A stretch of DNA of 64,000 bases from Paracoccaceae bacterium (lineage in GTDB: Bacteria > Pseudomonadota > Alphaproteobacteria > Rhodobacterales > Rhodobacteraceae). The stretch spans positions 124,001 to 188,000 of the forward strand of contig JAFIEO010000039.1 in the NCBI GenBank assembly GCA_020832445.1. Direction: 5' to 3'. Under the pieces are notes generated by a model. That model saw nothing but the letters and a program-made list of their open reading frames with translations. It was not told the origin of the DNA and searched no databases. Positions 20,574 to 52,540 of this stretch are shown piece after piece (positions within the stretch are counted from its first letter, which is position 1; every line of letters starts with the position of its first letter). Made by a program: the position numbers and the translations under genes.

Positions 20574-20750
20574 CCCAAAGGCGCGGAATCAAGGCCGCAG
20601 GCCGCAGCGCTATCGGTGGGCCGTCCCGCGGCCTGCCGATTTGGCTGATGGCATACCAAGCTTTCAATCTTGGGAGTATGCAGCCTGCATAAAGTGAACT
20701 ACACGAGTGTCGGATCGGCAGACCCCGGCCCACCGATAGCGCGGGTTTTA
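20574..20750 (+). repeat. Interspersed palindromic repeat, copy 1
   Basis: The first of four copies of an intergenic element. A perfect 17-bp inverted repeat has arms at 20607-20623 (GCGCTATCGGTGGGCCG) and 20726-20742, with an inner 8-bp pair CTGCCGAT (20633-20640)/ATCGGCAG (20714-20721). GGCCGCAGGCC, just outside the left arm, forms a small hairpin. The outer terminal repeat seen in copies 2-4 is degraded here. It lies between convergent genes (SH3 protein and cyclotransferase); the remaining bases to 20844 are AT-rich with no other feature. Confidence 0.85.
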
Positions 20751-20844
20751 TGCATAGGATAACGTCCCTTTCAGGATATTACCGCATTCTGGGGCATTTA
20801 ATTGATTTATAAACAATTGCTTGCGTTCAGTTCTTCGATCCCAA

Positions 20845-21411
20845 TCACGCCCTGATCCGGCTGACACCCAATTGCGACAGGTTGTCATCGACCATGTCGC
20901 GCAATTGCGGGCTTGCAGGGCGCGCGCGGGGATAAAGCGGGGCCGCGCGATCATCCAGAACGCTGCCCCAGCCGGTGGTTGTCGCAAAGAAACGCGCCAC
21001 GCCATCACTGCCAAATTCCGCCAGAAACCCCGCGACCACAACATCCAGATAACTAAGATGGACCTGATGCGGCGGACCGGGCAGATCGGACGTGTCCAGT
21101 GACACCGCATAGATCTGCGCAATCACAGGTTCGGGGGATTCGTGGCTAAGGTGGTCATCGGGCACGGGATGGCGCAGATAGCCGGTTTCCCGCAGATCAA
21201 GTGCCGCCCAGTCTGCGCCGGGAACACGCGCAATCAACCCGTCAATGCGCGCGTCAGGGTCGGGCACGACACTTAGAAACGTGTGGTTCAGGTGGTGCGA
21301 CACGCGCCATTCCCGCCGCCAGCCGCGAATCGCGGCGCGGTGGGCGTCGGTATAATCATGGGTCTGGCGATTCACCAAAGACCCGTAGCCGAAGAAATAA
21401 GGATCACTCAT
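20845..21411 (-). CDS. Gamma-glutamylcyclotransferase family protein
   Basis: A 188-residue protein of the GGCT/AIG2-like fold. The N-terminal phosphate-binding motif FFGYGSLVNRQTHDY is present, followed by ARIDGLIARVPGADWAALDLRETGYLR, in which RETGY contains the candidate catalytic Glu region. It may cleave gamma-glutamyl amino compounds. The start is the ATG at 21411, the open frame extending to 21468. It is divergent from the glycine riboswitch and gcv operon, and is distinct from the ChaC homolog at 32962. Confidence 0.78.
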   Translation of the reverse strand: MSDPYFFGYGSLVNRQTHDYTDAHRAAIRGWRREWRVSHHLNHTFLSVVPDPDARIDGLIARVPGADWAALDLRETGYLRHPVPDDHLSHESPEPVIAQIYAVSLDTSDLPGPPHQVHLSYLDVVVAGFLAEFGSDGVARFFATTTGWGSVLDDRAAPLYPRARPASPQLRDMVDDNLSQLGVSRIRA

Positions 21412-21503
21412 GCTGCATTTCTGAACAGTTTGGCGCCTGTGCGCAAGTCTGGCATTTTTACTTGCCAAATGCGCCGACTTTCCGCTACCAGAAAAGCGCA
21501 GAC

Positions 21504-21664
21504 ACGGGAGACGCTGATCGCAAGGTCAGGGCCGAAGGAGCAACCGCCCCGGTAAACTCTCAGGCAAAAGGACCGGTTTGCACAACAGACTCTGGAGAGA
21601 GGTGCGCCTTGAGTGGCGGCCCGCCGAAGGGATAGCGATCTCAGGCGCACAGGACAGAGGGGGC
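21504..21664 (+). ncRNA. Tandem glycine riboswitch
   Basis: Two glycine aptamers precede gcvT. Aptamer 1 contains GCCGAAGGAGCAA, then AAACTCTCAGGCAAAAGGAC and a closing CAGACTCTGGAGAG. Aptamer 2 contains CGCCGAAGGGATAGCGATCTCAGG and ACAGGACAGAGGGG. These are the diagnostic CCGAAGG, CTCAGGCA and GGACAGAG elements. A hairpin GGGCC-GTCT-GGCCC (21699-21712) just before the GGAAGGGG ribosome-binding site may be part of the expression platform. By analogy, glycine binding should turn on the glycine cleavage operon. Confidence 0.9.
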
Positions 21665-21728
21665 ATGGAACGCGGCCAGCGCGCCGCAACATGGACCCGG
21701 GCCGTCTGGCCCAACCGGAAGGGGCAGT

Positions 21729-22853
21729 ATGACCGATTCGCAAACCGACCTGCGACGCACCGCATTACATGCATTGCATCTGGAACTGGGGGGCAAAATG
21801 GTGCCCTTCGCGGGCTATGACATGCCGGTGCAATATCCGATGGGGGTGATGGGCGAGCATCTGCATTGCCGTGACAAGGCAGGCTTGTTCGATGTCAGCC
21901 ATATGGGGCAAGTCATCCTGCGTGGCCCTGATGCGGCGCTGGCGCTGGAACGGCTGGTGCCTGTGGCACTGGCGGAACTGCCGCTAGGGCGGCAGCGCTA
22001 TGCGATGTTCACCAATGACGCGGGCGGTATTCTGGATGATCTGATGGTGGCCAATCGCGGCGCCCATGTTCTGGCGGTGGTGAATGCGGCCTGCAAGGCG
22101 GCGGATCTGGCGCATATGCAGGACAATCTGCGGGATCTGGACGTGACCGAGGTGACCGACCGCGCCCTGTTGGCCTTGCAGGGGCCGCAGGCCGAGGCGG
22201 TCTTGGCGGGGCTTTTGCCCGAAGTTGCCAAGATGCGTTTCATGGATGTGGCCGATCATGACTGGAACGGTGTCACGCTGTGGGTGTCAAGGTCGGGCTA
22301 TACCGGCGAGGACGGGTTTGAAATTTCGCTGCCGAACGCACAGGCAGAAGGCTTTGCCCGCGCGCTTCTGGCCCATCCCGATGTCGCGCCAATCGGTCTG
22401 GGCGCGCGCGACAGCCTGCGTCTGGAAGCGGGGCTGTGCCTTTATGGCAATGATATTGACACAACCACCACCCCGATCGAGGCTGGACTGACCTGGGCCA
22501 TTCAGAAGGGGCGTAGGGTGGGCGGCGCGCGCGCCGGCGGTTTTCCCGGTGCGGATGTTGTTCTGCCGCAACTGGCACAAGGTGCGCCGCGCCAGCGTGT
22601 GGGGCTGTTGCCCGACGGGCGCGCGCCCATGCGCGCAGGCACAGCGCTGTTTGCCACACAAGACAGCGAAACGCAGATCGGCACCATTACATCCGGCGGG
22701 TTCGGTCCGTCACTGGGGCGACCTGTCGCCATGGGATATGTGCCTGCCCAATACGCGGGCGCTGACACGGAACTTTGGGCCGAATTGCGCGGCAAGCGTT
22801 TGCCTGTGCGCGTGGCCGCTTTACCCTTTCGCCCATCTAACTACAGCAAATGA
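21729..22853 (+). CDS. gcvT: Glycine cleavage system aminomethyltransferase (T protein)
   Basis: A 374-residue aminomethyltransferase transferring the methylene group from the H-protein arm to tetrahydrofolate, releasing ammonia. Typical segments are [52 protein letters not shown] (folate region) and [20 protein letters not shown]. The C-terminal barrel ends [14 protein letters not shown] to [20 protein letters not shown]. It is first in gcvTHP behind the glycine riboswitch, with GGGGCAGT before its ATG. Confidence 0.96.
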
Positions 22854-22861
22854 GGGACACT

Positions 22862-23221
22862 ATGCGTTTTACCGAAGAACATGAATGGCTGCGCGTCGAA
22901 GGCGATGTCGTGGTCGTGGGTATTACCGAACATGCCGCTGAACAACTTGGCGATGTGGTATTCGTGGAATTGCCCGAAATAGAGGCCATGGTGGCCAAGG
23001 GCGACGAAGTCTGCGTCATCGAATCGGTCAAGGCCGCCAGTGACATTCTGGCCCCTGTCGATGGCGAGATTGTCGCGGTCAATGAAGCGCTTGTCGACAG
23101 CCCCGCCCTGGTCAATGAAGACCCCCAGGGGGATGCGTGGTTTTTCAAGATGAAACTCGATGATCTTGGCGTTCTGGACGATCTGATGTCCGAGGACGAA
23201 TACAAGGAATTTCTGGGCTGA
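22862..23221 (+). CDS. gcvH: Glycine cleavage system H protein
   Basis: A 119-residue lipoyl carrier shuttling the aminomethyl group between P and T proteins. It begins with the canonical [14 protein letters not shown], and the lipoylated Lys is Lys57 in [11 protein letters not shown]. The frame is also open from an ATG at 22850 overlapping the gcvT stop, but GAGGGA five bases before 22862 and the family N-terminus favour 22862. It is 22 bp before gcvP. Confidence 0.96.
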
Positions 23222-23243
23222 TTGCCCATTGGCGGAGAGACGC

Positions 23244-26084
23244 ATGACCTATACCCCCACGGATTATAACCCCTATGATTTTGCCAATCGCCGCCATATC
23301 GGGCCAACGCCCGAAGAAATGGCGCAGATGCTGGATGCAGTGGGCTGTGACAGTCTGGAGCAGTTGATCGACCAGACCATCCCCGCCGATCTGCGACAGG
23401 CCGACCCGCTGACATGGGCACCCCTGTCCGAGGGGGAATTACTGGCAAAATTGCGGGCCGTGGGGGCAAAGAACCGGATCATGACCAGCCTGATCGGGCA
23501 GGGCTATTATGGCACGGTCACCCCGCCTGCAATTCTGCGCAATATCTTTGAGAATCCGGCATGGTATACGGCCTATACCCCCTATCAGCCCGAAATTGCC
23601 CAAGGGCGTCTGGAAGCGCTGCTGAATTTTCAGACTATGGTGGCCGATCTGACGGGCCTGCCTGTTGCCAATGCGTCGCTTCTGGACGAATCCACCGCAT
23701 GCGCCGAAGCCATGGTGATGGCGCAGCGGCTTGCCAAATCGAAAGCACAGGCATTTTTTGTGGATGAAAACTGCCATCCGCAAAATATTGCCGTCATGCA
23801 AACCCGCGCGGCCCCTTTGGGGATCGAAGTTATTGTGGGCGCGCCTGACAGCTTGCAGCCGGAACAGGTTTTCGGGGCCATATTCCAGTATCCCGGCACC
23901 CATGGCGATCTGCGTGATTTCACGCCCCAGATCGCGGCCTTGCATGACGCCAAGGCGCTGGCGATCATGGCAACCGATCTGCTGGCGCTGACCATGATCC
24001 GCGAACCGGGCCACCTTGGGGCCGATATTGCGGTAGGGTCTGCGCAACGCTTTGGTGTGCCCATGGGCTATGGTGGCCCGCATGCGGCATTCATGTCGTG
24101 CCGTGACGACTATAAGCGGGCTATGCCGGGGCGCATTGTGGGCGTCAGCATTGATGCGCGCGGCAATCGCGCCTACCGGCTGTCGCTGCAAACCCGCGAA
24201 CAACATATCCGGCGCGAGAAGGCGACAAGCAATGTCTGTACCGCGCAGGCGCTTCTGGCGGTCATGGCGTCGATGTATGCGGTGTTCCATGGTCCCAAAG
24301 GGCTGCGCGCCATTGCGGAACGGGTGCATTTCCGCACGCAGCGGTTGTATCATGCGCTGCGCGCGGCGGGTGCGCGGGTGGTGGTCAAGGATTTCTTTGA
24401 CACAATCACAGTCGATGTTGGCGTGGGGCAGGCGGGTATTCTGGCCGCCGCGCGGCACGAAGGGCTGAACCTGCGCAAGGTCGGTGCGACACATGTGGGC
24501 ATTTCGCTGGATGAAACCACAGATGAGCAGGTCTTGCTCCGCGTCTTGCGGGTATTCGGCATCGAAGGGGTGCCGCCCCACCGCGCGGAACTGGGATTTG
24601 ACGAAAGCTTCCTGCGCGAAAGCGACTATCTGACCCACCCCATTTTCCACATGAACCGCGCGGAAACGGAAATGATGCGCTATATGCGCCGCCTGTCCGA
24701 CCGCGACCTGGCGCTGGACCGCGCGATGATCCCGCTGGGGTCTTGCACCATGAAACTGAACGCGGCGGCAGAAATGATCCCGCTGTCCTGGCCGGAATTT
24801 TCCACCCTGCACCCGTTCTGCCCGCCCGATCAGGCGCAGGGCTATGCGCAGGCGATTTCCGACCTGAAGGCGAAACTATGTGAAATCACCGGCTATGACG
24901 CCATGTCGATGCAGCCCAATTCCGGCGCGCAGGGCGAATATGCGGGCTTGCTGACGATTCAGGCCTATCACCGCGCGCGCGGACAGGGGCACCGCGATAT
25001 CTGTCTTATCCCCGTGTCGGCCCATGGCACCAACCCCGCCAGCGCGCAGATGTGCGGCATGAAGGTGGTTGTCGTCAAATCCAGCGCGAATGGCGATGTG
25101 GATCTGGATGATTTCCGCGAAAAGGCCATCAAGGCAGGCGACCGTCTGGCGGCCTGCATGATCACCTATCCCAGCACGCATGGCGTGTTTGAACAAACCG
25201 TGCGCGAGGTTTGCGCCATAACCCACGATCATGGCGGGCAGGTCTATATTGACGGGGCAAACCTGAATGCCATGGTCGGGCTGGTCAAACCGGGCGATAT
25301 TGGCGGCGATGTCAGCCACCTGAACCTGCACAAGACCTTTGCCATTCCGCATGGTGGGGGTGGCCCTGGAATGGGGCCAATCGGGGTGAAGGCGCATCTG
25401 GCGCCGTTCCTGCCCGGACATCCTGAAATTGGCGGGGCTGAAGGGCCGGTATCGGCGGCACCTTACGGGTCGGCGTCGATCTTGTTGATTTCATGGGCTT
25501 ATTGCCTGATGATGGGCGGCGCGGGCCTGACACAGGCCACACGCGTGGCCATTCTGAACGCCAATTACATCGCGGCGCGGTTGCGCGGGGCCTATGACAT
25601 CTTGTTCATGGGCAACAAGGGCCGCGTGGCGCATGAATGCATCATTGATACGCGTCCTTTTGCGAAGGCCGGTATCACCGTAGATGACATTGCCAAGCGG
25701 TTGATTGATAACGGTTTCCATGCCCCAACCATGAGCTGGCCAGTTTCGGGCACCTTGATGGTGGAACCCACCGAATCCGAGACCAAGGCCGAGATTGACC
25801 GTTTCATCACCGCACTTCTGGCCATCCGCGATGAAATCCGCGCGGTCGAGGATGGCACGATGGATGCCAATGACAACCCGCTGAAACACGCCCCCCACAC
25901 GGTCGAGGATCTGGTGGCGGATTGGGACCGGCCTTATTCGCGCGAAGCAGGGTGTTTCCCGCCCGCAAGTTTCAGAGGCGACAAATACTGGCCGCCCGTG
26001 GGGCGCGTGGACAATGTGTTCGGCGACCGCAATCTGGTCTGCACCTGCCCACCTGTGGAAAGCTACCTTGACGCGGCGGAGTAG
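23244..26084 (+). CDS. gcvP: Glycine dehydrogenase (decarboxylating), P protein
   Basis: A single-chain 946-residue PLP enzyme that decarboxylates glycine and loads H protein. The N-terminal half has [37 protein letters not shown] and [12 protein letters not shown]. The C-terminal half has [30 protein letters not shown] and [19 protein letters not shown], and the PLP-binding Lys (about residue 697) in [18 protein letters not shown]. The true start is the ATG at 23244, with GGAGAG upstream. This is the full-length alpha form; it is not split into GcvPA/PB. Confidence 0.96.
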
Positions 26085-26106
26085 TGTCGCGTGACGAGAT
26101 GAACCA

Positions 26107-26132
26107 GCGGTCCCGATAATTTTCGGGGCCGC
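26107..26132 (+). terminator. Stem-loop after gcvP
   Basis: GCGGTCCCGA (26107-26116) pairs with TCGGGGCCGC (26123-26132), including one T-G wobble, around the loop TAATTT. It lies 22 bases after the gcvP stop. There is no clear T-tract, so termination strength is uncertain. Confidence 0.55.
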
Positions 26133-26161
26133 GTTGCGTGTCGAGGGCGGAAGATATGCGA

Positions 26162-26385
26162 TTCTGGCCTGAAGCTGACACCCCAAGGCGCGGGGCAAAG
26201 GGCGCAGCCCGCCGCGCCATCGGTGGGCCGTCCCGCGGCCTGCCGATTCTGCTGATGGCGGGCCAAGCCTTTGAAGTAAGGATATGCAGCCTGCATAAAC
26301 TGCATTCTTATAATGTCGGATCGGCAGACCCCGGCCCACCGATAGCGCGGGCTTAGTCCCCGCGCGAATGACCGCTTCAGGCCAA
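26162..26385 (+). repeat. Interspersed palindromic repeat, copy 2
   Basis: The second copy. Terminal inverted repeats TGGCCTGAAGC (26165-26175) and GCTTCAGGCCA (26374-26384) bound it. Inner arms lie at 26214-26230 and 26332-26348 with one C-A mismatch (a G-U pair if transcribed from the minus strand). The small outer hairpin is GGGC-GCA-GCCC, where copies 1 and 3 have GGCC-GCA-GGCC. It sits between convergent gcvP and trpE. Confidence 0.9.
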
Positions 26386-26404
26386 ACGCCGCCGTAAATC
26401 TAGT

Positions 26405-27931
26405 TCAGCCATTCCCGCCCGAAAACCGTCCTGCATCTTCGGCAGCGCGGCGCAGTGCGTGGGATTTGTTGACGGTTTCCTGATATTCAGACTCGGGGTC
26501 GCTGTCATAGACAACGCCGCCGCCTGCCTGAATATATAGCGTCTGATCTTTTAGGACGGCCGTGCGCAAACAGATGCACATGTCCATTTCGCCATTTGCC
26601 GCGAAATAGCCAGCGCCACCACCATACACGCCACGTTTTTCAGGCTCCAGCTCGTCAATGATCTGCATCGCGCGGACTTTGGGCGCGCCTGATACCGTGC
26701 CAGCGGGCAGCCCTGCCAAAAGCGCCGAAAGCGCGTCCTGCCCGTCGGCCAGTTCCCCCACCACGTTGGACACAATGTGCATCACATGGCTGTAGCGTTC
26801 GATGATGAATTCTTCGGTCGGGCGCACTGTGCCAACCTTGGCCACGCGCCCCACATCATTGCGCCCCAGATCCAGCAACATCAGGTGTTCGGCCAGTTCC
26901 TTCTGGTCGGCAAGCAGGTCTGATTCATAGGCGCGGTCCTGCTCGGGCGTGGCCCCGCGCGGGCGGGTTCCCGCAATGGGCCGGATGGTCACTTCGCCAT
27001 CGCGCAGGCGCACCAGAATTTCGGGGCTGGCCCCGATAATCTGAAAGCCCCCCGACTGGTTGGCAAAGTCGAAATAGAACATGAAGGGTGACGGGTTCGT
27101 GCGGCGCAAGGACCGGTACAGCGTAAAGGGCGGCAGGGCGAATTTCTGCGACCAACGCTGCGACGGCACAACCTGAAAAATATCGCCCGCGCGAATATAT
27201 TCTTTCGCCACCTCGACTGCCGCCAGATAATCGGGTTTCGCAAAATTGGACACCGGCGCGCCAAGGGGCTGCGCATCGCTGCCCAATTCGCGCGGGGCCT
27301 GCGCCACACTGCGTTCCAGATCGCGCACCGCGTCCATGACCCGTTCCGCCGCCTGCGCATAGGCCGCGCGCGCCGACAGGCCGGACCCCGCCCATGCAGG
27401 CGACACAACAATCACTTCGCCCTTCACACCGTCCAGTACCGCAACAACCGACGGGCGCAGCATGATGGAATCGGGCACGCCAATGGGGTCGGGGTTGATG
27501 TCTGGCAGATCTTCGACCAGCCGGATCATGTCATAGCCCAGATAGCCGAATAACCCTGCTGACGCCGCAGGCAGGTCATCGGGCATATCAATGCGGCTTT
27601 CGGCCAGAACATCGCGCAATGTGTCCAGCGGGTGGCCTTGCAGGGCTTGCCAGCTTTCGGGATCAAAGCGCGCATCGCGGTTGATACGGCTTTGCGTGCC
27701 GCGACATTCCCAGATCAGGTCCGGTTTCAGCCCGATGATGGAATAGCGCCCGCGCACTTCGCCACCCGTGACAGATTCAAGGATGAAGCTGTCGCGGCTG
27801 GCGCCTGCAAGTTTCATATACAATGAAACCGGCGTATCCAGATCGGCGGCAAGGCGGGTGTAGACAAGCTGGTTTTCACCGCGCGACCAGCCGTCTTCAA
27901 AATGCTGGTATTCAGGGGTAAGGCTGGCCAT
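26405..27931 (-). CDS. trpE: Anthranilate synthase component I
   Basis: A 508-residue chorismate-utilising enzyme catalysing the first step of tryptophan synthesis with a glutaminase partner. The N-terminal part holds the Trp-feedback-type LESVTGGEVRGRYSIIG. The catalytic part has YIRAGDIFQVVPSQRWS, FQIIGASPEILVRL, TIRPIAGTRPRGATPEQD, ELAEHLMLLDLGRNDVGRVA, then LPAGTVSGAPKVRAMQIIDE and YGGGAGYFAANGEMD. trpG is not adjacent. It lies 6 bp after the peptidyl-prolyl isomerase gene, an order I associate with Rhodobacterales. Confidence 0.96.
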   Translation of the reverse strand: MASLTPEYQHFEDGWSRGENQLVYTRLAADLDTPVSLYMKLAGASRDSFILESVTGGEVRGRYSIIGLKPDLIWECRGTQSRINRDARFDPESWQALQGHPLDTLRDVLAESRIDMPDDLPAASAGLFGYLGYDMIRLVEDLPDINPDPIGVPDSIMLRPSVVAVLDGVKGEVIVVSPAWAGSGLSARAAYAQAAERVMDAVRDLERSVAQAPRELGSDAQPLGAPVSNFAKPDYLAAVEVAKEYIRAGDIFQVVPSQRWSQKFALPPFTLYRSLRRTNPSPFMFYFDFANQSGGFQIIGASPEILVRLRDGEVTIRPIAGTRPRGATPEQDRAYESDLLADQKELAEHLMLLDLGRNDVGRVAKVGTVRPTEEFIIERYSHVMHIVSNVVGELADGQDALSALLAGLPAGTVSGAPKVRAMQIIDELEPEKRGVYGGGAGYFAANGEMDMCICLRTAVLKDQTLYIQAGGGVVYDSDPESEYQETVNKSHALRRAAEDAGRFSGGNG

Positions 27932-27937
27932 GGGTGC

Positions 27938-29800: not shown

Positions 29801-29954
29801 GCGATAACTCTTTTCACGTTTCCCGTTGGGTTTGCGCCTGTGTAAGGAAACCTGTGCGAAGGGGCAAGCATTCAGATCAGCGGATCACGCCTGCGCGTGT
29901 CACAAGGGCGCGTTATCTTGCGATATTGATGCGTATTCGGACGGGCATATAATG

Positions 29955-30548: not shown

Positions 30549-30599
30549 AGCAGGTAATCCGCAGTCGGGGCATTGACAAGCCTGCGGGCCAAATGGTAG

Positions 30600-30626
30600 C
30601 GATACGATATAGTTTCGAGTCGATAC
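30600..30626 (+). promoter_or_regulatory. Candidate operator between marR-like gene and rpoH2
   Basis: The 100-bp divergent gap has two CGATAC direct repeats (30600-30605 and 30621-30626) exactly 21 bp apart, two helical turns. They are within a partly palindromic stretch from GGTAGCGA (30595) to TCGATACC (30620-30627). A TTGACA lies at 30573 but has no good -10 box. A site for the MarR-like protein is plausible and unproven. Confidence 0.3.
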
Positions 30627-30648
30627 CAACTGTGGACGAGAGGACGCA

Positions 30649-31509: not shown

Positions 31510-31569
31510 TACTTTGGGGTGTTTCTGTCACGGACGCGGCATTTGCCACTGATCGGGACCGCACACGAC

Positions 31570-32895: not shown

Positions 32896-32961
32896 CACTT
32901 GCCCCTGTTCATCATTGCGTGAAATGTGTGTACACCTTGCGTATAGGAAAGGGCCAGTCAC

Positions 32962-33513: not shown

Positions 33514-33583
33514 TTTGCGACAGATCAAGGTTTTTGATGCCTGTTTCAGCTAAACTGAAAGGATGTCAAAACAGGAGCATTGA

Positions 33584-33829: not shown

Positions 33830-33891
33830 TGGGTGGGGCGCTGCGTGCAAAGTGGCCGCACCCAGCGCCTTTGGCTTGGCCGCATCACTGC

Positions 33892-34737
33892 TTAGCTTGC
33901 GGCAATCACATCGGCTTTCTGCGTGCCCAGCCCTTCGACTGTCAGCGAAACAACATCGCCCGGTTTCAGAAATTGCGGCGGTGACATACCAGCCGCAACC
34001 CCTGACGGGGTTCCCGTTGCAATGATATCACCGGGCAGAAGTTCCATGAAACGGGACATGTAGGACACGATCTGTGCAACAGTGAAAATCATATCCGCCG
34101 TTGTCGAATCCTGCCGCGGATCGCCGTTGACCGAAAGCTGCAACCGAAGCGCTTGGGGGTCTTGCACGTCATCGGCTGTGACCAGCCAAGGACCGATCTT
34201 GCCAAAACCGGGGGCGGATTTTCCCTTGATCCATTGCCCGCCACGGTTCTTTTGAAAATCGCGCTCGGACACGTCATTGACCGCGCAATAACCTGCGACA
34301 TACTCCAGCGCGTCCGCTTCATTGACATATAAGGCGGGTTTGCCGATGACGATGCCCAACTCAACTTCCCAATCCGTGCGGTTGGCGCCGCGCGGAATGA
34401 TGATCGGGTCTTGCGGGCCTGCAAGCGATGAGGTGGCCTTGGAAAATACCAGCGGCTCTTTGGGTTTTTCAGCGCCGGTTTCTGCGGCATGGGCTGCATA
34501 GTTCAGCCCGATGCAATAGAAATTGGGAACATGCGCCAGCGGCGCGCCTATGCGCACGGGCTGGTCAACCACAGGCAGGGTGGCGGGGTCAATCTGCGCC
34601 AGTTGCGCGAGTGCGTCCAGCGACACAGTGTCGCCACCGAAATCGGCGGTCACACCGGACAGGTCGCGCACATTGCCCTGAGTATCCAGACAACCGGGTT
34701 TTTCCTGCCCTTTCGGGCCGTAGCGAAGTAGCTTCAT
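33892..34737 (-). CDS. Fumarylacetoacetate hydrolase-family protein
   Basis: A 281-residue FAH-superfamily enzyme. IGLNYAAHAAETGAEKPKEP, VFSKATSSLAGPQDPIIIP, WEVELGIVIGKPALYV (metal-binding Glu), YCAVNDVSERDFQKNRGGQW and PGDIIATGTPSGVAAGMSPP are family motifs. Members include 2,4-diketo-3-deoxy-L-fuconate hydrolase, 5-carboxymethyl-2-hydroxymuconate isomerase-type enzymes and acylpyruvases; I cannot choose. GGAGC precedes the ATG. Repeat copy 3 lies just upstream. Confidence 0.88.
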   Translation of the reverse strand: MKLLRYGPKGQEKPGCLDTQGNVRDLSGVTADFGGDTVSLDALAQLAQIDPATLPVVDQPVRIGAPLAHVPNFYCIGLNYAAHAAETGAEKPKEPLVFSKATSSLAGPQDPIIIPRGANRTDWEVELGIVIGKPALYVNEADALEYVAGYCAVNDVSERDFQKNRGGQWIKGKSAPGFGKIGPWLVTADDVQDPQALRLQLSVNGDPRQDSTTADMIFTVAQIVSYMSRFMELLPGDIIATGTPSGVAAGMSPPQFLKPGDVVSLTVEGLGTQKADVIAAS

Positions 34738-34818: not shown

Positions 34819-35047
34819 TTTTGGCCTGAAAGGGGACACTCAAGGCGCGGTGCAAAGGCCGCAGGCCGCCGCGCCATAGGTCTGGCCGTCCCGCGGCCTG
34901 CCGATTTGGCTGATGACAGTCCAAGCCCTTGAGCAAAGGAGTATGCAGCCGGCATAAAGTGAACTTCACGAATGTCGGATCGGCAGACCCCGGCCTGACC
35001 TATGGCGCGGGCTGTATCCAAGCGCGAAGGGCAGCTTCAGGCCATGC
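34819..35047 (+). repeat. Interspersed palindromic repeat, copy 3
   Basis: The third copy. Terminal inverted repeats TGGCCTGAA (34822-34830) and TTCAGGCCA (35036-35044) bound it and come within 6 bp of the universal stress protein stop. Inner arms at 34871-34888 and 34991-35008 pair at 17 of 18 positions although both differ from copies 1, 2 and 4. It also has GTGAACTTCAC, a perfect small hairpin shared with copy 4. Confidence 0.9.
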
Positions 35048-35049
35048 GC

Positions 35050-35511
35050 CTATCCTGTGGCAATGGCTTCCAGTTTGTCACGATCAAGTTCACCGGGCAC
35101 AATCGTGATCGGGATGGGCAGCGTGCCGGAGTTGCGCACAAGCTGGGTCACAATCGGGCCGGGGTTGTTGCCTTCTGTGCCCGCCCCCAGAACCAGAAAC
35201 CCGATATCGGGATCATCCTGTATCTGGGCCAGCACTTCTTCCACCGCATCGCCTTCGCGGATGACAAGTTCGGGGTGCAGCCCCTTGCGGTCGCGCATCC
35301 ATTTGGCAAAGACTTCAAAATGCGCCTCTATCCGCTCTCGGGCTTCGGCGCGCATGACATCGGCCACACCGATCCAGCCCTGAAACTCCTCCGGGCTTAT
35401 GACGGACAGGATCTGCACCTCGGCGCCGGTTTTGGCGGCCCGCAGCGCCGCAAAGCGGATCGCATTCAGGCATTCGCGGCTGTCGTCCAGTACAACCAGA
35501 AATTTGCGCAT
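35050..35511 (-). CDS. Universal stress protein (UspA family)
   Basis: A 153-residue UspA-fold protein. RKFLVVLDDSRECLNAIRFA opens it, VQILSVISPEEFQGWIGVAD follows, and FLVLGAGTEGNNPGPIVTQL with RNSGTLPIPITIVPG is a G-x2-G-x9-G(S/N)-like ATP-binding region in altered form. Start at 35511 after AAAGGAAAGCGTC. It lies 76 bp downstream of the response regulator on the same strand and may share its transcript. Confidence 0.85.
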   Translation of the reverse strand: MRKFLVVLDDSRECLNAIRFAALRAAKTGAEVQILSVISPEEFQGWIGVADVMRAEARERIEAHFEVFAKWMRDRKGLHPELVIREGDAVEEVLAQIQDDPDIGFLVLGAGTEGNNPGPIVTQLVRNSGTLPIPITIVPGELDRDKLEAIATG

Positions 35512-40426: not shown

Positions 40427-40443
40427 ACGGGCAGGGGGGAACG

Positions 40444-41268
40444 ATGCTCGATACCAATCCAGACGAGGGATACACCACCGCAGACGGGCGCAAGATCGGT
40501 GGGATCGCTATGGAAATGCGCAACATCACCCTGCGCTTCGGGGGTGTTGTCGCCATCAAGGACATCAGTTTTGACATTCGATGGGGGGAAATCCGCGCCA
40601 TCATCGGCCCCAACGGCGCGGGCAAATCGTCGATGCTGAACGTGATTTCCGGCTTCTACCATCCGCAGGACGGAGAGGTTATCTACAAGGGCTACAAACG
40701 CCCGCGCATGCGCCCCTATCAGGTGGCGCAGCAAGGGATTGCGCGCACGTTTCAGAACATCGCGCTGTTTGAAGGCATGAGCGTTCTGGACAACATCATG
40801 ACCGGGCGCTTGCACCACATGAAGGCGAATATATTTCACCAAGCCATCTGGTGGGGCCGCGCGGCCCGCGAAGAAGCCGAGAACCGCGAGCAGGTCGAGA
40901 AGATCATCGATTTTCTTGAAATCCAGCATATCCGCAAAACCCCCGTGTCACGCCTGCCATATGGCCTGAAAAAGCGGGTGGAACTGGCGCGCGCGCTGGC
41001 GGCCGAACCCAGCATTTTGCTGCTGGATGAACCGATGGCGGGCATGAATGTCGAAGAAAAAGAAGACATGTGCCGCTTCATTCTGGATGTGAATGACGAA
41101 TTCGGCACCACCACTGTGCTGATCGAACATGACATGGGCGTGGTCATGGACCTGTCCGACCGTGTGGTGGTCATGGATTACGGCAAAAAAATCGGGGACG
41201 GCACCCCTGACGAGGTGCGCAACAATCAAGAAGTCATCAATGCCTATCTTGGCGTTGCACATGACTGA
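40444..41268 (+). CDS. Branched-chain-type ABC transporter ATPase (LivG-like)
   Basis: A 274-residue cytoplasmic ATPase of the HAAT family. Walker A is IIGPNGAGKSSMLNVISGFY, the Q-loop region is RTFQNIALFEGMSVLDNIM, the signature is SRLPYGLKKRVELARALA and Walker B is LLLDEPMAGMNVEE. The H-loop His is in VLIEHDMGVVMDL. GGGGGGA five bases upstream supports the ATG at 40444 over an ATG at 40423 that overlaps the ligase stop. It is second in the transporter operon. Confidence 0.92.
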   Translation: MLDTNPDEGYTTADGRKIGGIAMEMRNITLRFGGVVAIKDISFDIRWGEIRAIIGPNGAGKSSMLNVISGFYHPQDGEVIYKGYKRPRMRPYQVAQQGIARTFQNIALFEGMSVLDNIMTGRLHHMKANIFHQAIWWGRAAREEAENREQVEKIIDFLEIQHIRKTPVSRLPYGLKKRVELARALAAEPSILLLDEPMAGMNVEEKEDMCRFILDVNDEFGTTTVLIEHDMGVVMDLSDRVVVMDYGKKIGDGTPDEVRNNQEVINAYLGVAHD

Positions 41269-41300
41269 ACAGGCGACAGACCGCAGGGGAGGGGGCAGAT

Positions 41301-42287: not shown

Positions 42288-42290
42288 TTC

Positions 42291-43367: not shown

Positions 43368-43416
43368 TTGGGGCGGGCTGATCTTTCGAACTGTCATCCA
43401 TATGGGAGGAGAACCG

Positions 43417-44709: not shown

Positions 44710-44776
44710 TAAGAACCAAAGGTTCCGGGCATTGCCCGGGACCTTACCCCCACCTTGAACGCGAAGGCCCAATGCC

Positions 44777-45601
44777 ATGCTTGATGCAAGCCCCACGCAG
44801 ACGACCCTTCTGGAAGTCAACAATATCGAAGTGCTTTACAATCATGTCATTCTGGCACTGAAAGGTGTCAGTCTGGATGTGCCCAAAGGTGGCATAACGG
44901 CCATTCTGGGCGGCAATGGCGCGGGCAAATCGACCACATTGAAGGCGATTTCAAACCTGATCCATTCCGAACGGGGCGAAGTCACCAAGGGCAGTATCCT
45001 GTATGAAGGGCGCAATGTGGTCGGGCTGGACCCTGCTGATCTGGTGAAATCCGGTGTCGTGCAGGTGATGGAAGGCCGCCATTGTTTCGAGCATCTGACA
45101 GTTGAAGAAAACCTGCTGACCGGCGCCTATACCCGCACCGACGGGCGGGGCGCTGTGGCTGCGGAACTTGATCTTGTGTATGAATATTTCCCGCGCCTGA
45201 AGGAACGCCGCAAAAGTCAGGCGGGCTACACCTCGGGGGGCGAGCAGCAGATGACAGCGATTGGCCGCGCGTTGATGTCGCGCCCGTCGATGATCTTGCT
45301 GGATGAACCCTCCATGGGGCTGGCCCCGCAACTGGTGGAGCAGATTTTCGAAATTGTCTCTCGGCTGAACCGTGAACAGGGCGTGACATTTCTGCTGGCC
45401 GAACAGAACACCAATGTTGCACTGCGCTATGCGCATACCGGTTTCATCATGGAAAACGGGCGTATCGTGATGGAAGGCAACGCGCAGGAATTGCGTGAAA
45501 ACCCCGATGTAAAGGAATTCTATCTGGGCATGTCCGACAAGGGCCGCAAAAGTTTCCGCGATGTGCGCAGCTATCGCCGCCGCAAGCGCTGGCTGGCGTG
45601 A
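44777..45601 (+). CDS. Branched-chain-type ABC transporter ATPase (LivF-like)
   Basis: A 274-residue second ATPase of the transporter. Walker A is ILGGNGAGKSTTLKAISNLI, the signature is GYTSGGEQQMTAIGRALMSR, and Walker B is MILLDEPSMGLAPQLVEQIF. FLLAEQNTNVALRYAHTGFI is the LivF-type H-loop segment, with Gln in place of the usual His, common in LivF. Its C-terminus ends with a basic tail RSYRRRKRWLA. It completes the two-ATPase, two-permease, one-binding-protein set. Confidence 0.92.
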   Translation: MLDASPTQTTLLEVNNIEVLYNHVILALKGVSLDVPKGGITAILGGNGAGKSTTLKAISNLIHSERGEVTKGSILYEGRNVVGLDPADLVKSGVVQVMEGRHCFEHLTVEENLLTGAYTRTDGRGAVAAELDLVYEYFPRLKERRKSQAGYTSGGEQQMTAIGRALMSRPSMILLDEPSMGLAPQLVEQIFEIVSRLNREQGVTFLLAEQNTNVALRYAHTGFIMENGRIVMEGNAQELRENPDVKEFYLGMSDKGRKSFRDVRSYRRRKRWLA

Positions 45602-45673
45602 TCCTTGCCTGCCACACTTCGTTTTTCCGCTGTTCGTTTTCCCGCCGTCCCGCAAACCCCAAAAGGCACAGCC

Positions 45674-46891: not shown

Positions 46892-46927
46892 AAACCCCGC
46901 ACGCGTGTCAACATTGGGGGTGTCATC

Positions 46928-48556: not shown

Positions 48557-48675
48557 TGGGGCCTGATTGCTGATCGGCGTGTCTTCGCGGGCTGCAAGTG
48601 TCTTGTCGGGGGGGGTGCAATCCTATAGATCGCATCAACCCCGAACCCCCGCTTCCGCCGAAAGGATGCCGCGCC

Positions 48676-49380
48676 ATGACAATGCCCAGTGACGACCGCC
48701 TGATTGTTGCCCTTGATGTGCACAATGCCCTTGCGGGGCTGGAACTTGCACGCCAGCTTGGCGATACGGTCAGTTTCTACAAGATCGGGCTGGGCATGCT
48801 GACAGGTGGCGGGCTGGCGCTGGCCAATGAACTGAAACAGGAACATGGCAAACGCATATTTCTGGATATGAAGTTCTTTGACATCGGCGCAACTGTAACC
48901 GCGGCCGTGCGCGGGATTGCGCAATATGATCTGGATTTCCTGACAGTGCATGGCGATCCGCATGTCGTGCGCGCCGCACGCGAAGGGGCGGGCGGGTCCA
49001 ACCTGAAAATCCTTGGCGTAAGTGTGCTGACATCGCTGGATCGCGCTGATCTTGATGATGGCATGATCCAGCCCGGTGATATTGCCGAAATCACGCTGGA
49101 ACGTGCGGCCCGTGCCTTGGCCGCCGGTGCGGACGGGGTGATTGCCAGCCCGAATGAAGCCGCCGCCATCCGCGCGCTGCCCGAAGCTGCGGGCAAGCTG
49201 ATTGTCACACCGGGGGTCCGGCCCGCGGGGGCCGATCTGGGTGATCAGAAGCGTGTCGCCACACCGGCGCGCGCCCTGAGTGAAGGGGCGGATCATATTG
49301 TCGTGGGCCGGCCCATCTGGCAGGCCACCGACCCAAAGGCGGCCGCGCGTGCGGTGCTTGCAGAAATTTCAGGCGCGTAA
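48676..49380 (+). CDS. pyrF: Orotidine 5'-phosphate decarboxylase
   Basis: A 234-residue TIM-barrel enzyme making UMP from OMP in pyrimidine synthesis. DDRLIVALDVHNALAGLELA and the catalytic DMKFFDIGATV (Asp-x-Lys-x2-Asp) are clear. VTPGVRPAGADLGDQKRVAT and HIVVGRPIWQATDPKAAARA close the barrel. The start is the ATG at 48676 or 48682, with AAAGGA upstream; the open frame extends to 48598. Confidence 0.95.
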   Translation: MTMPSDDRLIVALDVHNALAGLELARQLGDTVSFYKIGLGMLTGGGLALANELKQEHGKRIFLDMKFFDIGATVTAAVRGIAQYDLDFLTVHGDPHVVRAAREGAGGSNLKILGVSVLTSLDRADLDDGMIQPGDIAEITLERAARALAAGADGVIASPNEAAAIRALPEAAGKLIVTPGVRPAGADLGDQKRVATPARALSEGADHIVVGRPIWQATDPKAAARAVLAEISGA

Positions 49381-49443
49381 GCCGTTTCCTGCACGCGATT
49401 GCACAGATCAGCGCGCGTGGCCTATCGCTGCAATGCGCGCGGC

Positions 49444-50277
49444 TTAGTGTTTTGCAGACCAGCTCATGGACACGCGCGAGCGGGTGTAGAATTCGCCCAT
49501 AAGCCCCAGAACCAGCGCGCAAATGCCAAACACCAGCGGGTAGTAAACCCAGGTATGCATAGGGTTGTAATTGATAAACGCATAGCCGCGCGCCTGATCA
49601 ATGGCGTGGAACAACGGGTTCCACATGAAATAGGGCAGCACGGATTCGGGCAGCGTGTTTGCCAGAAAAAACTTGCCGGACGCCACCATGTTCAACCTTG
49701 TGTAGAACATTGTAACCAGCTTGCTGGCACTGGGCACCCATGGTTTTATCGCATACATGACCACACCGATGGCCAGCCCCGCAAACCAGACGGTCAGAAA
49801 CACCGCGAATGTCTGAATGGGCTGATAGATGGTCAGCGGTGTCCAAAGCGCGTGATACAGAAACAGCAGCACAACCACGGTCACAACCTGAATATACAGC
49901 TCTGCCAGCGCGGCGCCGCCGATGGCCACAATCGGGTTCATGGGGCGGTGCTTCATCATCGCGGATGCAGGCCCTTCGGCCCCCGCGACGGCCCCGATGA
50001 CCTTGACATGCGCCATGAACATGAACACGCCTGTCATCAGATACAGCAGCACATCCCCGCGCACAGCTGCCGCGCGCATGCCTGCGAACAGAAAAATCGC
50101 CATAAAGACGGCAACAAGGATCAGCGTCTGGGCAATATTCAGCAAAAGCCCGATAATGGCATTGCCGTGGCTTTTGCGCACATTGCGCACACCTTGATTG
50201 AAAATCAGGTTCAGCGTTGTAAAAAACTGCGCCCAGATAGAGTTGCGCCCTGAAGAAGAATACATTTCTGCGCTCAT
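49444..50277 (-). CDS. ABC-2 type permease, polysaccharide export (KpsM-like)
   Basis: A 277-residue membrane permease with about six helices: IIGLLLNIAQTLILVAVFMA, VLLYLMTGVFMFMAHVKV, LYIQVVTVVVLLFLYHALW, FAVFLTVWFAGLAIGVVMYA and VYYPLVFGICALVLGLMG. NPLFHAIDQARGYAF followed by NYNPMHTWVYYPL is the motif of capsular or O-antigen exporters. No ATPase (KpsT) or KpsE/KpsD gene is adjacent. It is divergent from cysQ and converges with pyrF. Confidence 0.85.
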   Translation of the reverse strand: MSAEMYSSSGRNSIWAQFFTTLNLIFNQGVRNVRKSHGNAIIGLLLNIAQTLILVAVFMAIFLFAGMRAAAVRGDVLLYLMTGVFMFMAHVKVIGAVAGAEGPASAMMKHRPMNPIVAIGGAALAELYIQVVTVVVLLFLYHALWTPLTIYQPIQTFAVFLTVWFAGLAIGVVMYAIKPWVPSASKLVTMFYTRLNMVASGKFFLANTLPESVLPYFMWNPLFHAIDQARGYAFINYNPMHTWVYYPLVFGICALVLGLMGEFYTRSRVSMSWSAKH

Positions 50278-50411
50278 TGTTTCGGTGCGGATTGCGCAAA
50301 ATCGCGCCTGAATTCATATACAACGTAGCGCGAAACAACTATTTGGGCAATCACCCTTGCACCCCACCCTGACATTCGCAAGATGAACCGCGCACAGCAA
50401 AGGATCACATA

Positions 50412-51215
50412 ATGTCGGATATTGACTTTCAGAAGATCGAATTGGAATTTCGCGCGCTTGCCTTGCAGGCCGGCGACGTAATCATGCAGATTTATAACCG
50501 GCCTGATTTCGACATCCGCACCAAATCTGATGACAGTCCTGTAACCGAAGCGGATGAAGCCGCCGATGCGATTATTTCCGCAGGGCTGGCGCGTGCGTTT
50601 CCCGGCGTCGCCGTGGTGACGGAAGAACAGGCCCAAAGCCATGGAACCAGCGCAGATGTGTTCATTATCGTGGACCCGTTGGACGGCACCAAGGAATTCA
50701 TCAACCGGCGCGGTGATTTCACTGTCAATATTGCCTATGTCGAAAATGGTGTGCCGCTGCGTGGTGTGGTGTATGCGCCCGCCAAGAACCGTATGTTCTA
50801 TACCCGTGCCGACGGGCACAGTGTGGAAGAAGCAGGCCCTTTCGCACATGACACCCAAGGTCAGCTGTGCGATTTGCAGGTGCGCCACGCGGATATGGCG
50901 GCGCTGCTGGTGGTTGCGTCGAAATCCCACCGCGATCAGGCCACCAATGATTATATTGAGAAATACAATGTTGCCGATCTGTGCAGCGCAGGATCATCGT
51001 TGAAATTCTGCCTTGTCGCCACGGGAGAGGCCGATCTGTATCCGCGCCTTGGCCGGACAATGGAATGGGACACTGCCGCAGGCGATGCCGTGTTGCGCGG
51101 TGCAGGCGGGCGTGTGGTGACATTTGCGGGGCATGATGTGCTGGCATATGGCAAGCCCGGTTTTGAAAACCCGTTTTTCATTGCCGCCAGCCCGACCGTT
51201 GACTTGCTGCCCTGA
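50412..51215 (+). CDS. cysQ: 3'(2'),5'-bisphosphate nucleotidase CysQ
   Basis: A 267-residue Mg-dependent phosphatase of the inositol-monophosphatase family that removes PAP, the by-product of PAPS-dependent sulfation or sulfate assimilation. IRTKSDDSPVTEADEAADAI, PGVAVVTEEQAQ, VDPLDGTKEFINRRGDFTVN and RTMEWDTAAGDAVLRGAGGR are diagnostic. AAAGGATCACATA precedes the ATG. Its place near a sulfotransferase-like gene (56571) fits PAP removal, but it also serves general sulfur metabolism. Confidence 0.93.
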   Translation: MSDIDFQKIELEFRALALQAGDVIMQIYNRPDFDIRTKSDDSPVTEADEAADAIISAGLARAFPGVAVVTEEQAQSHGTSADVFIIVDPLDGTKEFINRRGDFTVNIAYVENGVPLRGVVYAPAKNRMFYTRADGHSVEEAGPFAHDTQGQLCDLQVRHADMAALLVVASKSHRDQATNDYIEKYNVADLCSAGSSLKFCLVATGEADLYPRLGRTMEWDTAAGDAVLRGAGGRVVTFAGHDVLAYGKPGFENPFFIAASPTVDLLP

Positions 51216-51366
51216 AGAATTGCGGGCGGTGATTGCCGCCCGCTGCATTTGCGGTGCGAAAACCCTGAAATTGCCACCTGCGCCCCCTGATTTGACCCCA
51301 AACCTGCCGCATTTTCCCTGTTAACTATTCTTTAACAAAGACAGGTTCAACAGAATGGAGCGGCAG

Positions 51367-52260
51367 ATGAAGCGCAAGGTCACCAAAGCAGTTTTTCCGG
51401 TTGCAGGTATGGGCACACGATTCCTGCCCGCGACAAAATCGGTTCCCAAAGAAATTATGACACTGGTGGATCGTCCGTTGATCCAATACGCGATTGATGA
51501 AGCGCGCGCCGCAGGCATTACCGAATTCATCTTTGTCACGTCGCGCGGCAAAGGGGCGCTGGAAGATTATTTTGACCACGCGCCGGAACTTGAAAACTCG
51601 CTTCGGGCCAAAGGCAAAACCGAACTACTGGAAACCCTTCAGGCGACGAATATGGACAGCGGCGCAATCGCATATGTACGCCAGCATCAGGCCCTTGGTC
51701 TGGGTCATGCCGTGTGGTGCGCGCGCCATCTGGTGGGCAATGAGCCGTTTGCGGTGTTGCTGCCCGATGACGTAATTGCGGCTGAAAAACCCTGTCTTCA
51801 GCAGATGATAGAGGCATATGAGCAAACCGGCGGCAATATGATTGCGGCCATGGAAGTCGCACCCGACAAGGCGTCCAGCTATGGCATCATGGATGTGCCC
51901 CCTGCCATTGGCCCGATCCTGCCCATGTCGGGCATGGTTGAAAAGCCTGCATCCGGCACGCAGCCGTCCAATCTTGCGGCCATCGGGCGCTATGTTCTGT
52001 CACCCGATATCATGCGCCATCTTGACCAGATCAAGCCGGGCGTGGGCGGGGAAATTCAGTTGACTGACGCGATTGCGCGCGAAATCGCGGAAAAGCGCAA
52101 TGTCTACGGGTTCCGCTTTGAGGGGCAACGTTACGATTGCGGGTCCAAGGCGGGGTTCTTGCAGGCCACGGTGGCCTTCGGGCTGGCGCGTGCAGAGTTG
52201 CGTGACGAGCTTGATGAATTCCTGACCGATATGATGGCACAACGCCACGCCGCGCAATAA
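51367..52260 (+). CDS. galU: UTP-glucose-1-phosphate uridylyltransferase
   Basis: A 297-residue nucleotidyltransferase making UDP-glucose. VFPVAGMGTRFLPATKSVPKE is the GalU opening, QYAIDEARAAGITEFIFVTS follows, RQHQALGLGHAVWCAR is the substrate loop, and GEIQLTDAIAREIAEKRNVY with RYDCGSKAGFLQATVAFG closes the fold. GGAG lies 7 bases before the ATG at 51367, preferred over the in-frame ATG at 51355. It supplies sugar donor to the downstream glycosyltransferases. Confidence 0.95.
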   Translation: MKRKVTKAVFPVAGMGTRFLPATKSVPKEIMTLVDRPLIQYAIDEARAAGITEFIFVTSRGKGALEDYFDHAPELENSLRAKGKTELLETLQATNMDSGAIAYVRQHQALGLGHAVWCARHLVGNEPFAVLLPDDVIAAEKPCLQQMIEAYEQTGGNMIAAMEVAPDKASSYGIMDVPPAIGPILPMSGMVEKPASGTQPSNLAAIGRYVLSPDIMRHLDQIKPGVGGEIQLTDAIAREIAEKRNVYGFRFEGQRYDCGSKAGFLQATVAFGLARAELRDELDEFLTDMMAQRHAAQ

Positions 52261-52315
52261 CCCGCGCGCTGCGATATGGTATGCGCCGGTCAGGTTGAAA
52301 GATTGTGATTGGTGG

Positions 52316-52540
52316 TGGTTCTGGCCTGAAGGGGACACCCAAGGCGCGGAGCAAAGGGCGCAGCCCGCCGCGCCATCGGCGGGCCGTCCCGCGGCCTGCC
52401 GATTACTCTGCTGATACGCCAAGCCTTTGAAAGCAGGAGTATGCAGCCGGCATAAAGTGAACTTCACGAATGTCGGATCGGCAGACCCCGGCCCACCGTT
52501 GGCGCGGGCTTTGTCTACGGCAGCAAACAGGCCAGAATTG
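52316..52540 (+). repeat. Interspersed palindromic repeat, copy 4
   Basis: The fourth copy, between galU and the first GT2 gene. Terminal inverted repeats TTCTGGCCTG (52319-52328) and CAGGCCAGAA (52528-52537) are perfect at 10 bp. Inner arms are at 52370-52386 and 52489-52505 with two mismatches. The side hairpin is GGGC-GCA-GCCC. It is in the same orientation as the other three. Confidence 0.9.

Follow-up and report, generated by a model that had tools for sequence, protein, structure and literature searches.

The four dispersed repeats in the 64-kb window, by which we mean the whole stretch of 64,000 nucleotides analyzed, belong to a palindromic non-coding family with roughly 115 elements in the genome. 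Its members are found next to stop codons, mostly between convergent genes, at sites that are common to close relatives, and at these sites the contents vary and the modules of the elements assort nearly independently. Searching for the core pattern gave 116 sites in this genome (G000) and 106 in Roseinatronobacter sp. S2 (G020), which is ~96% identical to it, while the reversed-pattern control gave 0 in both. The original prediction of a genome-wide non-coding family is thus borne out, since copies are not limited to the four of the window and related genomes carry them as well; in other respects, given below, the earlier reading is only partly supported.

All four intergenic copies exist and align, and the identical stretches quoted for them are found in the window copies. 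The profile-called extents are 20559-20784 (copy 1), 26163-26394 (copy 2), 34820-35049 (copy 3) and 52320-52546 (copy 4), all on the + strand, so that copy 1 reaches further on either side than first described; no fifth copy was called by the profile in the window. As first described, two copies (1 and 2) lie between convergent genes (20029-20520 + and 20845-21411 - for copy 1, 23244-26084 + and 26405-27931 - for copy 2), and two (3 and 4) between co-directional ones (33892-34737 and 35050-35511, both -, for copy 3, 51355-52260 and 52723-53703, both +, for copy 4). At the same sites in S2 the orientation is inverted for copies 1 and 3 and the same for copies 2 and 4, and in another relative (G021) the copy 2 site holds a loop-deleted remnant of another subtype. 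The shared orientation is true within the window but carries no meaning beyond chance, since 4 of 4 alike has p=0.125 and the core sites of the genome are split 67/49 between the strands. An orientation bias along replication, raised together with the prediction, was absent from the S2 chromosome, where 98 listed sites were divided into 53 + and 45 - and 83 of 300 permutations were as extreme in a two-arc permutation test. The nested inverted repeats are real, as for both strands of copy 2 the fold is better than that of each of 200 shuffled sequences (z -3.37 and -3.65), and so is the absence of gene interruption, none of the 195 copies having an overlap of more than 30 bases with a predicted gene.

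The elements are about 225-240 bp long here. Each has short inverted repeats at its ends and, between them, a side hairpin, two stems of which one is nested in the other, and a variable loop in which the motif CATAAA is conserved. In copy 2, read on the + strand, the terminal repeats are TGGCCT (26165-26170), near the outer limit of exchange, and AGGCCA (26379-26384); the side hairpin GGCGCGG ... GGGC GCA GCCC ... CCGCGCC (26187-26218) is the module that traces the family across the order. Stem A consists of ATCGGTGGGCCG (26219-26230) and CGGCCCACCGAT (26332-26343), and stem B of CTGCCGAT (26240-26247) and ATCGGCAG (26320-26327). The CATAAA motif in the loop (26294-26299) is outside the stems, yet nearly invariant in a 28-element alignment. 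When surveyed over elements with a profile score of at least 120, the terminal repeats proved short and degenerate, and they are located at the exchange limit.

Both stems covary strongly across genera, with changes on both sides in 18 of 34 stem pairs of the cross-genus alignment against 9.7 after shuffling, and a covariation score of 0.226, compared with 0.064 after shuffling and no more than 0.059 after sliding. Alignment A2 was drawn from 33 loci (L197-L226 and L185-L187) with eight omitted, three with the motif within a predicted gene and no matching element (L203, L211 and L224) and five with the right part missing, disturbed or unclear (L197, L212, L213, L216 and L222). A stem A partner with at most 3 mismatches of 14 was present for 52 of the 76 testable named-locus motifs. 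Non-canonical stem cells, counted by hand, comprised 5 G·U and 16 A·C; since the stems covary across genera without a preference for G·U, their pairing appears to be important at the DNA level or for both strands.

The gene context is strongly biased. The 195 copies (profile score of at least 60, as for the site pairing below) were held by 151 convergent, 44 co-directional and 0 divergent gaps, compared to 67, 501 and 114, respectively, among 682 element-free gaps, the Roseinatronobacter background gaps being taken from stretches fetched mostly because they bear elements. Genes were called with a purpose-made dicodon caller. The copies are positioned close behind stop codons, and at co-directional sites their orientation relative to the genes is 22/22. 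With 14 motifs at locus edges set aside, 36 of 66 classifiable non-genic sites at the named loci were convergent against 56 of 481 in the background (p 2.6e-14). In the corresponding Fisher table for Roseinatronobacter the background remainder was entered as 614 rather than 615. Purifying selection could by itself explain the convergent bias. A lack of intrinsic terminators at element sites is a weak candidate: a canonical terminator preceded the element at 38 of 302 gene ends at convergent element sites, against 31 of 78 in element-free convergent gaps for the whole gap or 20 of 78 for the first 90 bases, and the stretch examined was shorter at the element sites.

Within the genus the number of core sites is very uneven (116, 106 and 92 against 0-9 in the other sampled members), and side-hairpin counts range from 0 to 86. 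The side-hairpin motif was found in 66 of 292 sampled Rhodobacterales genomes, some of these being chance matches in genes, and a looser pattern in 21 of 37 genomes of the genus; among the named loci listed, 79 of 80 are Rhodobacterales by title. Many Rhodobacterales genera carry the family. Scanning the window against Rfam returned only a glycine riboswitch elsewhere in the window and no match to the element, and copy 2 at a permissive threshold gave two matches far below the gathering scores. Carriage by phages or viruses was rejected after a search without a match. Several contigs of this draft genome have an element at their end. Among the titles and abstract openings returned by a literature search, none described this palindrome family.

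Comparison with S2 shows that the sites persist and that their contents often do not. Of 96 elements, 75 could be paired with an S2 site (50 in the same orientation and 25 inverted) and 21 could not; all 75 paired S2 sites hold an element or a remnant and none is empty, from which we conclude that recent insertion is rare. When identity classes and modules were scored for elements with a profile score of at least 150, 70 well-scored pairs were divided into 23 inverted, 28 with the same orientation but altered and 19 unaltered, that is, the contents were altered in 51 of 70. In altered pairs the identity drops just inside the terminal repeat, and there the change ends. Inverted pairs have a median identity of 83.3, equal to that of random copies (83.3), and a flank median of 96.2 (64 pairs); because they resemble each other no more than random copies do, a simple in-place inversion was rejected. 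Within about 100 bases the flank identity was 0.84-0.95 at altered or inverted sites and 0.92-0.96 at unaltered ones. Inversion is not saturated in deeper comparisons (4 of 12 against the more distant G017, 0 of 5 for G021 against S2 and 1 of 3 for G021 against this genome). An artefact of the draft assembly is improbable: an element that had been misplaced would be expected to have a match of about 96% somewhere among the S2 elements, and 0 of the 23 inverted G000 copies reach 95% with any non-orthologous S2 element compared.

Across copies, linkage equilibrium is nearly reached between variants separated by more than 20 bp. The mean r2 beyond this distance is at most 0.013 against 0.005 in permuted data, all four variant combinations occur in 552 of 561 column pairs, and among 21 module pairs, with 44 to 98 of 196 copies unscorable per module, the lowest p was 0.02 and 0 were significant after correction. 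Recurrent mutation could account for some of this equilibrium. In-step switching of the two terminal stems, suspected at copy 2, was rejected as a general rule, as the type of the left end does not depend on that of the right end (V 0.09, p 0.45). The altered contents are not near-copies of any other element compared: among the G000 copies, 1 of 23 inverted ones and 2 of 28 altered ones had a paralogue of at least 95% in the same genome, as had 0 of 23 and 3 of 28 on the S2 side, and the exact matches of inverted copies were longer in the own genome than across genomes in 8 cases and shorter in 9. The data therefore give no support to copying from one resident element in a single step, nor to cut-and-paste swapping of elements; copying from multiple templates must be regarded as a rescue hypothesis.

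Our preferred explanation, which we consider about equally probable to hold or to fail, is a family of REP/ERIC-like palindromes that lacks a RAYT transposase, is shuffled by short-tract recombination and is tolerated or used as two-sided 3' boundaries. For the replacement mechanism and the host function we infer the following. The palindrome would extrude a hairpin and be broken, a nuclease of the SbcCD type being one possible agent. The gap would then be filled by copying, with template switching, from further members of the family; as the arms of the element mirror each other, the new filling may enter either way round. The putative hairpin would act on both strands, as a roadblock, a 3'-end protector or a topological boundary, and copies would thus be tolerated or useful only where transcripts end. 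Against this explanation stand the scarcity of donor copies, the inversion that stays unsaturated in deeper comparisons, the flanks that are less alike at altered and inverted sites, and the named-locus motifs without a stem A partner. Of the three identities originally offered, a 3'-end element fits best. A mini-transposon fits partly, with its short terminal inverted repeats and with element-free sites opposite elements of a more distant relative, but no RAYT gene scored over the cut-off and no constant target duplication was seen; a structured RNA is not favoured.

A rival reading is a passive selfish repeat, MITE-like and once spread by a transposase in trans, that survives where it is harmless, between gene ends, and combines old diversity with occasional homologous recombination, without host function. 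We regard this as possible but rather doubtful. It would account for the uneven copy number in the genus, for the terminal inverted repeats, for G017 elements that are opposite element-free sites (3 in S2 and 4 in this genome) and for one insertion specific to S2 at which about 85 bp of flank, judged by eye, are duplicated. Other element-free sites are too diverged to be read for target duplication. It is opposed by the 0 of 75 empty sites, by a constant short target duplication not being seen, and by module shuffling and inversion, which require an active process. A structured non-coding RNA, in which selection would act on the RNA fold of a transcribed element (an sRNA, a riboregulator or a one-strand 3' UTR structure), has the covarying stems and the nearly invariant CATAAA on its side, and of 104 Roseinatronobacter copies sampled, 77 fold better as the minus strand. 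However, this excess is absent across genera (9 of 25 non-window elements) and an RNA strand preference was dropped; with the 22/22 orientation at co-directional sites, the inversion between near relatives, the absence of wobble preference and of an Rfam match, we find such an RNA improbable.

Still more improbable is a site-specific cassette exchange, in which a recombinase reads the TGGCCT/AGGCCA ends and swaps whole elements in either orientation. The position of the terminal repeats at the exchange limit and the about equal frequencies of altered same-orientation and inverted pairs (28 and 23, binomial p 0.58) are as expected from it, but the ends are short and degenerate, the displaced element should be found elsewhere in S2 at about 96% while none of the S2 elements compared reaches 95% with the 23 inverted and 28 altered G000 copies, and the near equilibrium within the element needs exchange on a far finer scale.

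Returning to recombination between palindromes, it is conceivable, if on balance doubtful, that the ~100 fixed sites form one freely recombining population, in which a palindrome is broken and its filling rebuilt in one event from several copies and in random orientation, and that where genes converge the family marks a boundary of transcription or topology that works from both sides. Rebuilding from several copies would leave modules 20 bp apart near linkage equilibrium and the flanks hardly changed, and with a boundary role selection would preserve the fold while sequence and direction are free to change. With two genomes so nearly identical, one can count the sites in common, the altered contents, the inversions in place and the approach to linkage equilibrium, which would make conversion between dispersed palindromes measurable. 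With contents that differ and are often reversed at the same site in a close relative, the elements are an exceptionally clear example of recombination among scattered repeats. Likewise, given 0 divergent gaps and a strong convergent excess, a role or a cost of the elements where transcripts end can be put to a direct test.

For REP repeats, the unit of which is a few tens of bp, it has been proposed that dispersed palindromes undergo gene conversion. Like REP/BIME sequences of enterobacteria and pseudomonads, the present family is dispersed, extragenic, palindromic, present in many copies and both orientations, and biased to convergent gene ends, but at about 225-240 bp it is much longer and has a different sequence and architecture. 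No RAYT link was found: among the three high-copy genomes, G000 and G017 had 0 matches to Y1_Tnp, and S2 had one fragment that scored below the cut-off. REPs are stated to lie often between convergent genes (PMC1525189). Integron attC sites and the attC-like OTH-22-1 motif (PMC8632094) share folded DNA with conserved pairing, whereas our family consists of dispersed single elements. MITEs, too, are short and non-coding, have inverted repeats at their ends and occur in uneven numbers, but here no constant target duplication was seen, no partner transposase was identified in the Y1_Tnp search, and site occupancy is stable between close relatives. ERIC, NEMIS and RIME1 are intergenic palindromes of 100-200 bp. 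Compared by description only, they resemble our elements in size range, intergenic position and imperfect whole-element palindrome, and differ in host group; we know of no in-place inversion or linkage equilibrium of modules among their features. In the way it works the family resembles REP/BIME or ERIC repeats, and it may or may not belong to either. New here are the gene-context bias, the change and inversion of contents in place, the near linkage equilibrium and the stem covariation without G·U preference.

The four palindromic repeats of the window, numbered copies 1 to 4 by position, were called at 20559-20784, 26163-26394, 34820-35049 and 52320-52546 by a profile derived from 165 copies that contain the family core, which called no fifth copy within the window. 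As originally noted there are four copies, alignable across about 225 bp, and all of them are intergenic, copies 1 and 2 lying between convergent genes and copies 3 and 4 between co-directional genes. The proposal of a genome-wide non-coding family was borne out by a search for the core GTCGGATCGGCAGACCCCGGCC with at most three mismatches, which found 67 forward and 49 reverse sites (116 core sites) in the window's own genome (G000; 4.08 Mb, 99 contigs) and no match to a reversed-pattern control. Related genomes were also expected to carry the family, and the core is indeed present in 10 of 60 genomes searched, G000 included, all from one genus-level group, with 58 + 48 sites by strand in a close relative taken to be Roseinatronobacter sp. 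S2 and 92 in the relative G017; the control pattern matched once, in the relative G011. G000 contigs C3, C4, C5, C15, C25, C67, C68, C91 and C95 have core sites no more than about 200 bases from their starts, so the repeats probably break the draft assembly. On contig C1 of S2, none of the 98 sites listed (the total is at least 98) falls in the 420 kb between about 835,800 and 1,256,000, although this stretch could contain a site outside the list; the longest site-free gap expected on the chromosome is near 163 kb. None of the copies matches Rfam, and copy 4 matches no phage record. Elsewhere in the window Rfam recognizes a glycine riboswitch aptamer (21494-21585, + strand, 59.5 bits against a gathering threshold of 32), and two 53-base stretches, 75% alike, at 40597-40649 and 44900-44952 resemble, in our reading of their function, a nucleotide-binding motif shared by paralogous genes for ABC-type ATPases.

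G000 and S2, a relative about 96% identical to it, have sites in common at which the contents within the terminal repeats are often altered, in either orientation. Sites were paired by their flanks, using elements with a profile score of at least 60. From the G000 side 75 of 96 elements pair, 50 in the same orientation and 25 inverted, a few of the partners being weak remnants of less sure orientation, while 21 are unpaired and none faces an empty site. Starting from S2, a partner site was identified for 76 of 105 elements: 48 have the same orientation, 26 are inverted and 2 face a site without an element, while 29 are unpaired. Five other sites predicted to be empty by synteny proved on inspection to hold internally deleted palindromes. 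One of the two element-free G000 loci carries other DNA; the other faces an S2-only insertion (C1:2711021), where a flanking stretch of about 85 bp, single in G000, is by eye duplicated, a possible by-product of insertion.

Among the 64 pairs compared first, the median flank identity was 96.2%. Median element identity was 93.1%, with a bimodal distribution, for the 40 same-orientation pairs, and 83.3% for the 24 inverted pairs compared in register, which is that of 1500 random cross-genome pairs. When both copies had to score at least 150, 70 pairs remained, of which 19 are unaltered (at least 95% identity), 28 altered in the same orientation and 23 inverted. Colinear identity at inverted pairs is 0.87-0.93 in the flank, slightly less than the 0.92-0.96 at unaltered sites, stays near 0.8-0.9 over the terminal repeat's first seven bases and drops to about 0.5 by +20, so that the exchanged unit seems to reach from one terminal repeat to the other.

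Among the elements compared, altered and inverted elements are, with few exceptions, not near-copies of another element. A same-genome paralogue at 95% or more was found for 1/23 inverted and 2/28 altered elements of G000 and for 0/23 and 3/28 of S2, and in no class did any non-orthologous element from the other genome reach this level. The longest exact match was longer within the own genome than across genomes for 21 altered same-orientation pairs and shorter for 5, and longer for 8 inverted pairs and shorter for 9. The absence of a single donor may be due to mosaicism of the copies. For 35 two-state columns in the G000 and S2 copies the mean r2 is 0.195 within 20 bp and at most 0.013 beyond (permuted mean 0.005), and 552 of 561 column pairs contain all four combinations. 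Patterns were also used to score seven module types, each of which left between 44 and 98 of the 196 copies without a score. No association among the 21 module-type pairs was significant after correction (lowest p 0.02), and 27 different combinations occur among the 34 copies with scores at five modules. A joint switch of both ends, as seen at copy 2, was rejected as a general rule because the two ends assort independently.

Comparison with more distant relatives shows that sites persist for some time, with insertion and loss over longer times. Against S2, 35 unique G017 elements gave 12 shared occupied sites (8 same, 4 inverted), 3 facing an element-free site and 20 unpaired; against G000 the same elements gave 6 same, 3 inverted, 4 without element and 22 unpaired. 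One G017 pairing (L405) is doubtful because its flanks overlap by about 270 bases, and the junctions inspected were too diverged for reading a target duplication. In the relative G021 the site of copy 2 is occupied by a loop-deleted element that belongs to another subtype, whereas in G010, G031 and G017 it contains longer other DNA with no element seen. The site of copy 3 is a 55-base gap in G016. Of 24 G021 elements, a set that includes one picked for facing copy 2, five are common to S2 in both flanks, all in the same orientation and one across a 1350-base gap, and three to G000, one of them inverted. The 23 G021 elements included in the comparison make up a sequence group of their own (median identity 86.4% among themselves, 77.0-77.5% to G000, S2 and G017), so at least this genome has its own sequence type.

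Across the order, 66 of the 292 genomes sampled, from 42 of 112 genera, have the 21-base side hairpin with at most one mismatch, figures that include chance matches; the control gave none. When one such locus was retrieved from each of 30 genomes, three (L203, L211 and L224) lay inside predicted genes without an element and a few more lacked the element's right part. L213 carries an extra nested palindromic stretch within the stem region. Within the genus, a looser side-hairpin pattern occurs in 21 of 37 genomes, copy numbers ranging from 0 to 86. In an exact scan of named genomes 79 of the 80 loci listed (at least 80 in total) were Rhodobacterales by title, including Roseovarius, Sulfitobacter, Leisingera and Salipiger, and the remaining one was Azospirillum, with the motif inside a predicted gene; viral contigs held no match to the exact 21-mer. 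Of the motifs in the named loci, 76 were testable for the stem A partner, and 52 of them have it with no more than three mismatches of 14; some of the motifs are therefore divergent or truncated, or escaped what is a crude test. Pseudaestuariivita atlantica (L326) has two side-hairpin motifs on the same strand 175 bases apart, perhaps a tandem pair of elements.

An alignment was made of 28 elements, of which 3 are window copies and 25 come from other records within the order. Common to them are the side hairpin (GCGCGG..CAA-GGCC-GCA-GGCC-G-CCGCGC), a long stem A with stem B nested in it, and a variable loop in which ATAAA is nearly invariant; the right end is usually GCGCGG. Under the drawn structure 90.2% of cells are paired against 80.2 when shuffled, both-sided changes occur in 18 of 34 pairs against 9.7, and the covariation score is 0.226 against 0.064 shuffled and at most 0.059 slid, although drawing it on an alignment member (L186) somewhat favours the structure over slid controls. 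Pairing is kept with no preference for wobble: RNAalifold's own structure holds 5 G·U against 16 A·C cells by hand count, and stems A and B of Roseinatronobacter copies 29 G·T against 202 A·C cells, a few columns holding most (13 to 7 by column). Copy 2 folds better than 200 of 200 dinucleotide shuffles on both strands, and the minus strand folds better for 9 of 25 non-window elements across genera and 77 of 104 copies sampled within Roseinatronobacter. From the covariation, wobble and strand-fold counts, pairing looks selected, but not consistently as a one-strand RNA.

With genes called by our own dicodon gene caller, the 195 copies of G000 and S2 lie in 151 convergent and 44 co-directional gaps and are absent from divergent ones, against 67 convergent, 501 co-directional and 114 divergent among 682 element-free gaps in long stretches. 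Median distances are 40 bases to stop codons and 131.5 bases to starts, and orientation relative to transcription at co-directional sites is 22 to 22. The window, a sample picked independently of the element searches, has 2/10 convergent, 2/39 co-directional and 0/10 divergent gaps occupied. The named loci, including two from Roseinatronobacter, contain 81 listed motifs, of which 36 lie between convergent, 26 between co-directional and 4 between divergent genes, while 1 is inside a gene and 14 are at a locus edge. The 481 background gaps divide into 56 convergent, 336 co-directional and 89 divergent, which gives p 2.6e-14 for enrichment in convergent gaps and p 0.009 for depletion in divergent ones. 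The corresponding counts for a smaller 33-locus set are 13, 13 and 2, with 3 in genes and 2 at an edge. The convergent bias alone is compatible with use as well as with tolerance and does not separate the two.

We propose that an extruded palindrome would break and that repair would copy from several other family members; because the arms mirror each other, the orientation of the new content would be arbitrary. The convergent bias could reflect an effect on transcript ends that is symmetric between strands, or else a cost at other positions. The literature search, mostly outside subscription papers, found no description of this palindrome family. RAYT, the Y1_Tnp transposase linked with REP repeats, was not found over the cut-off in the three high-copy genomes. 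The family is clearly like REP repeats in placement but unlike them in size, and we file it among the bacterial intergenic palindromic repeats as a new variant.
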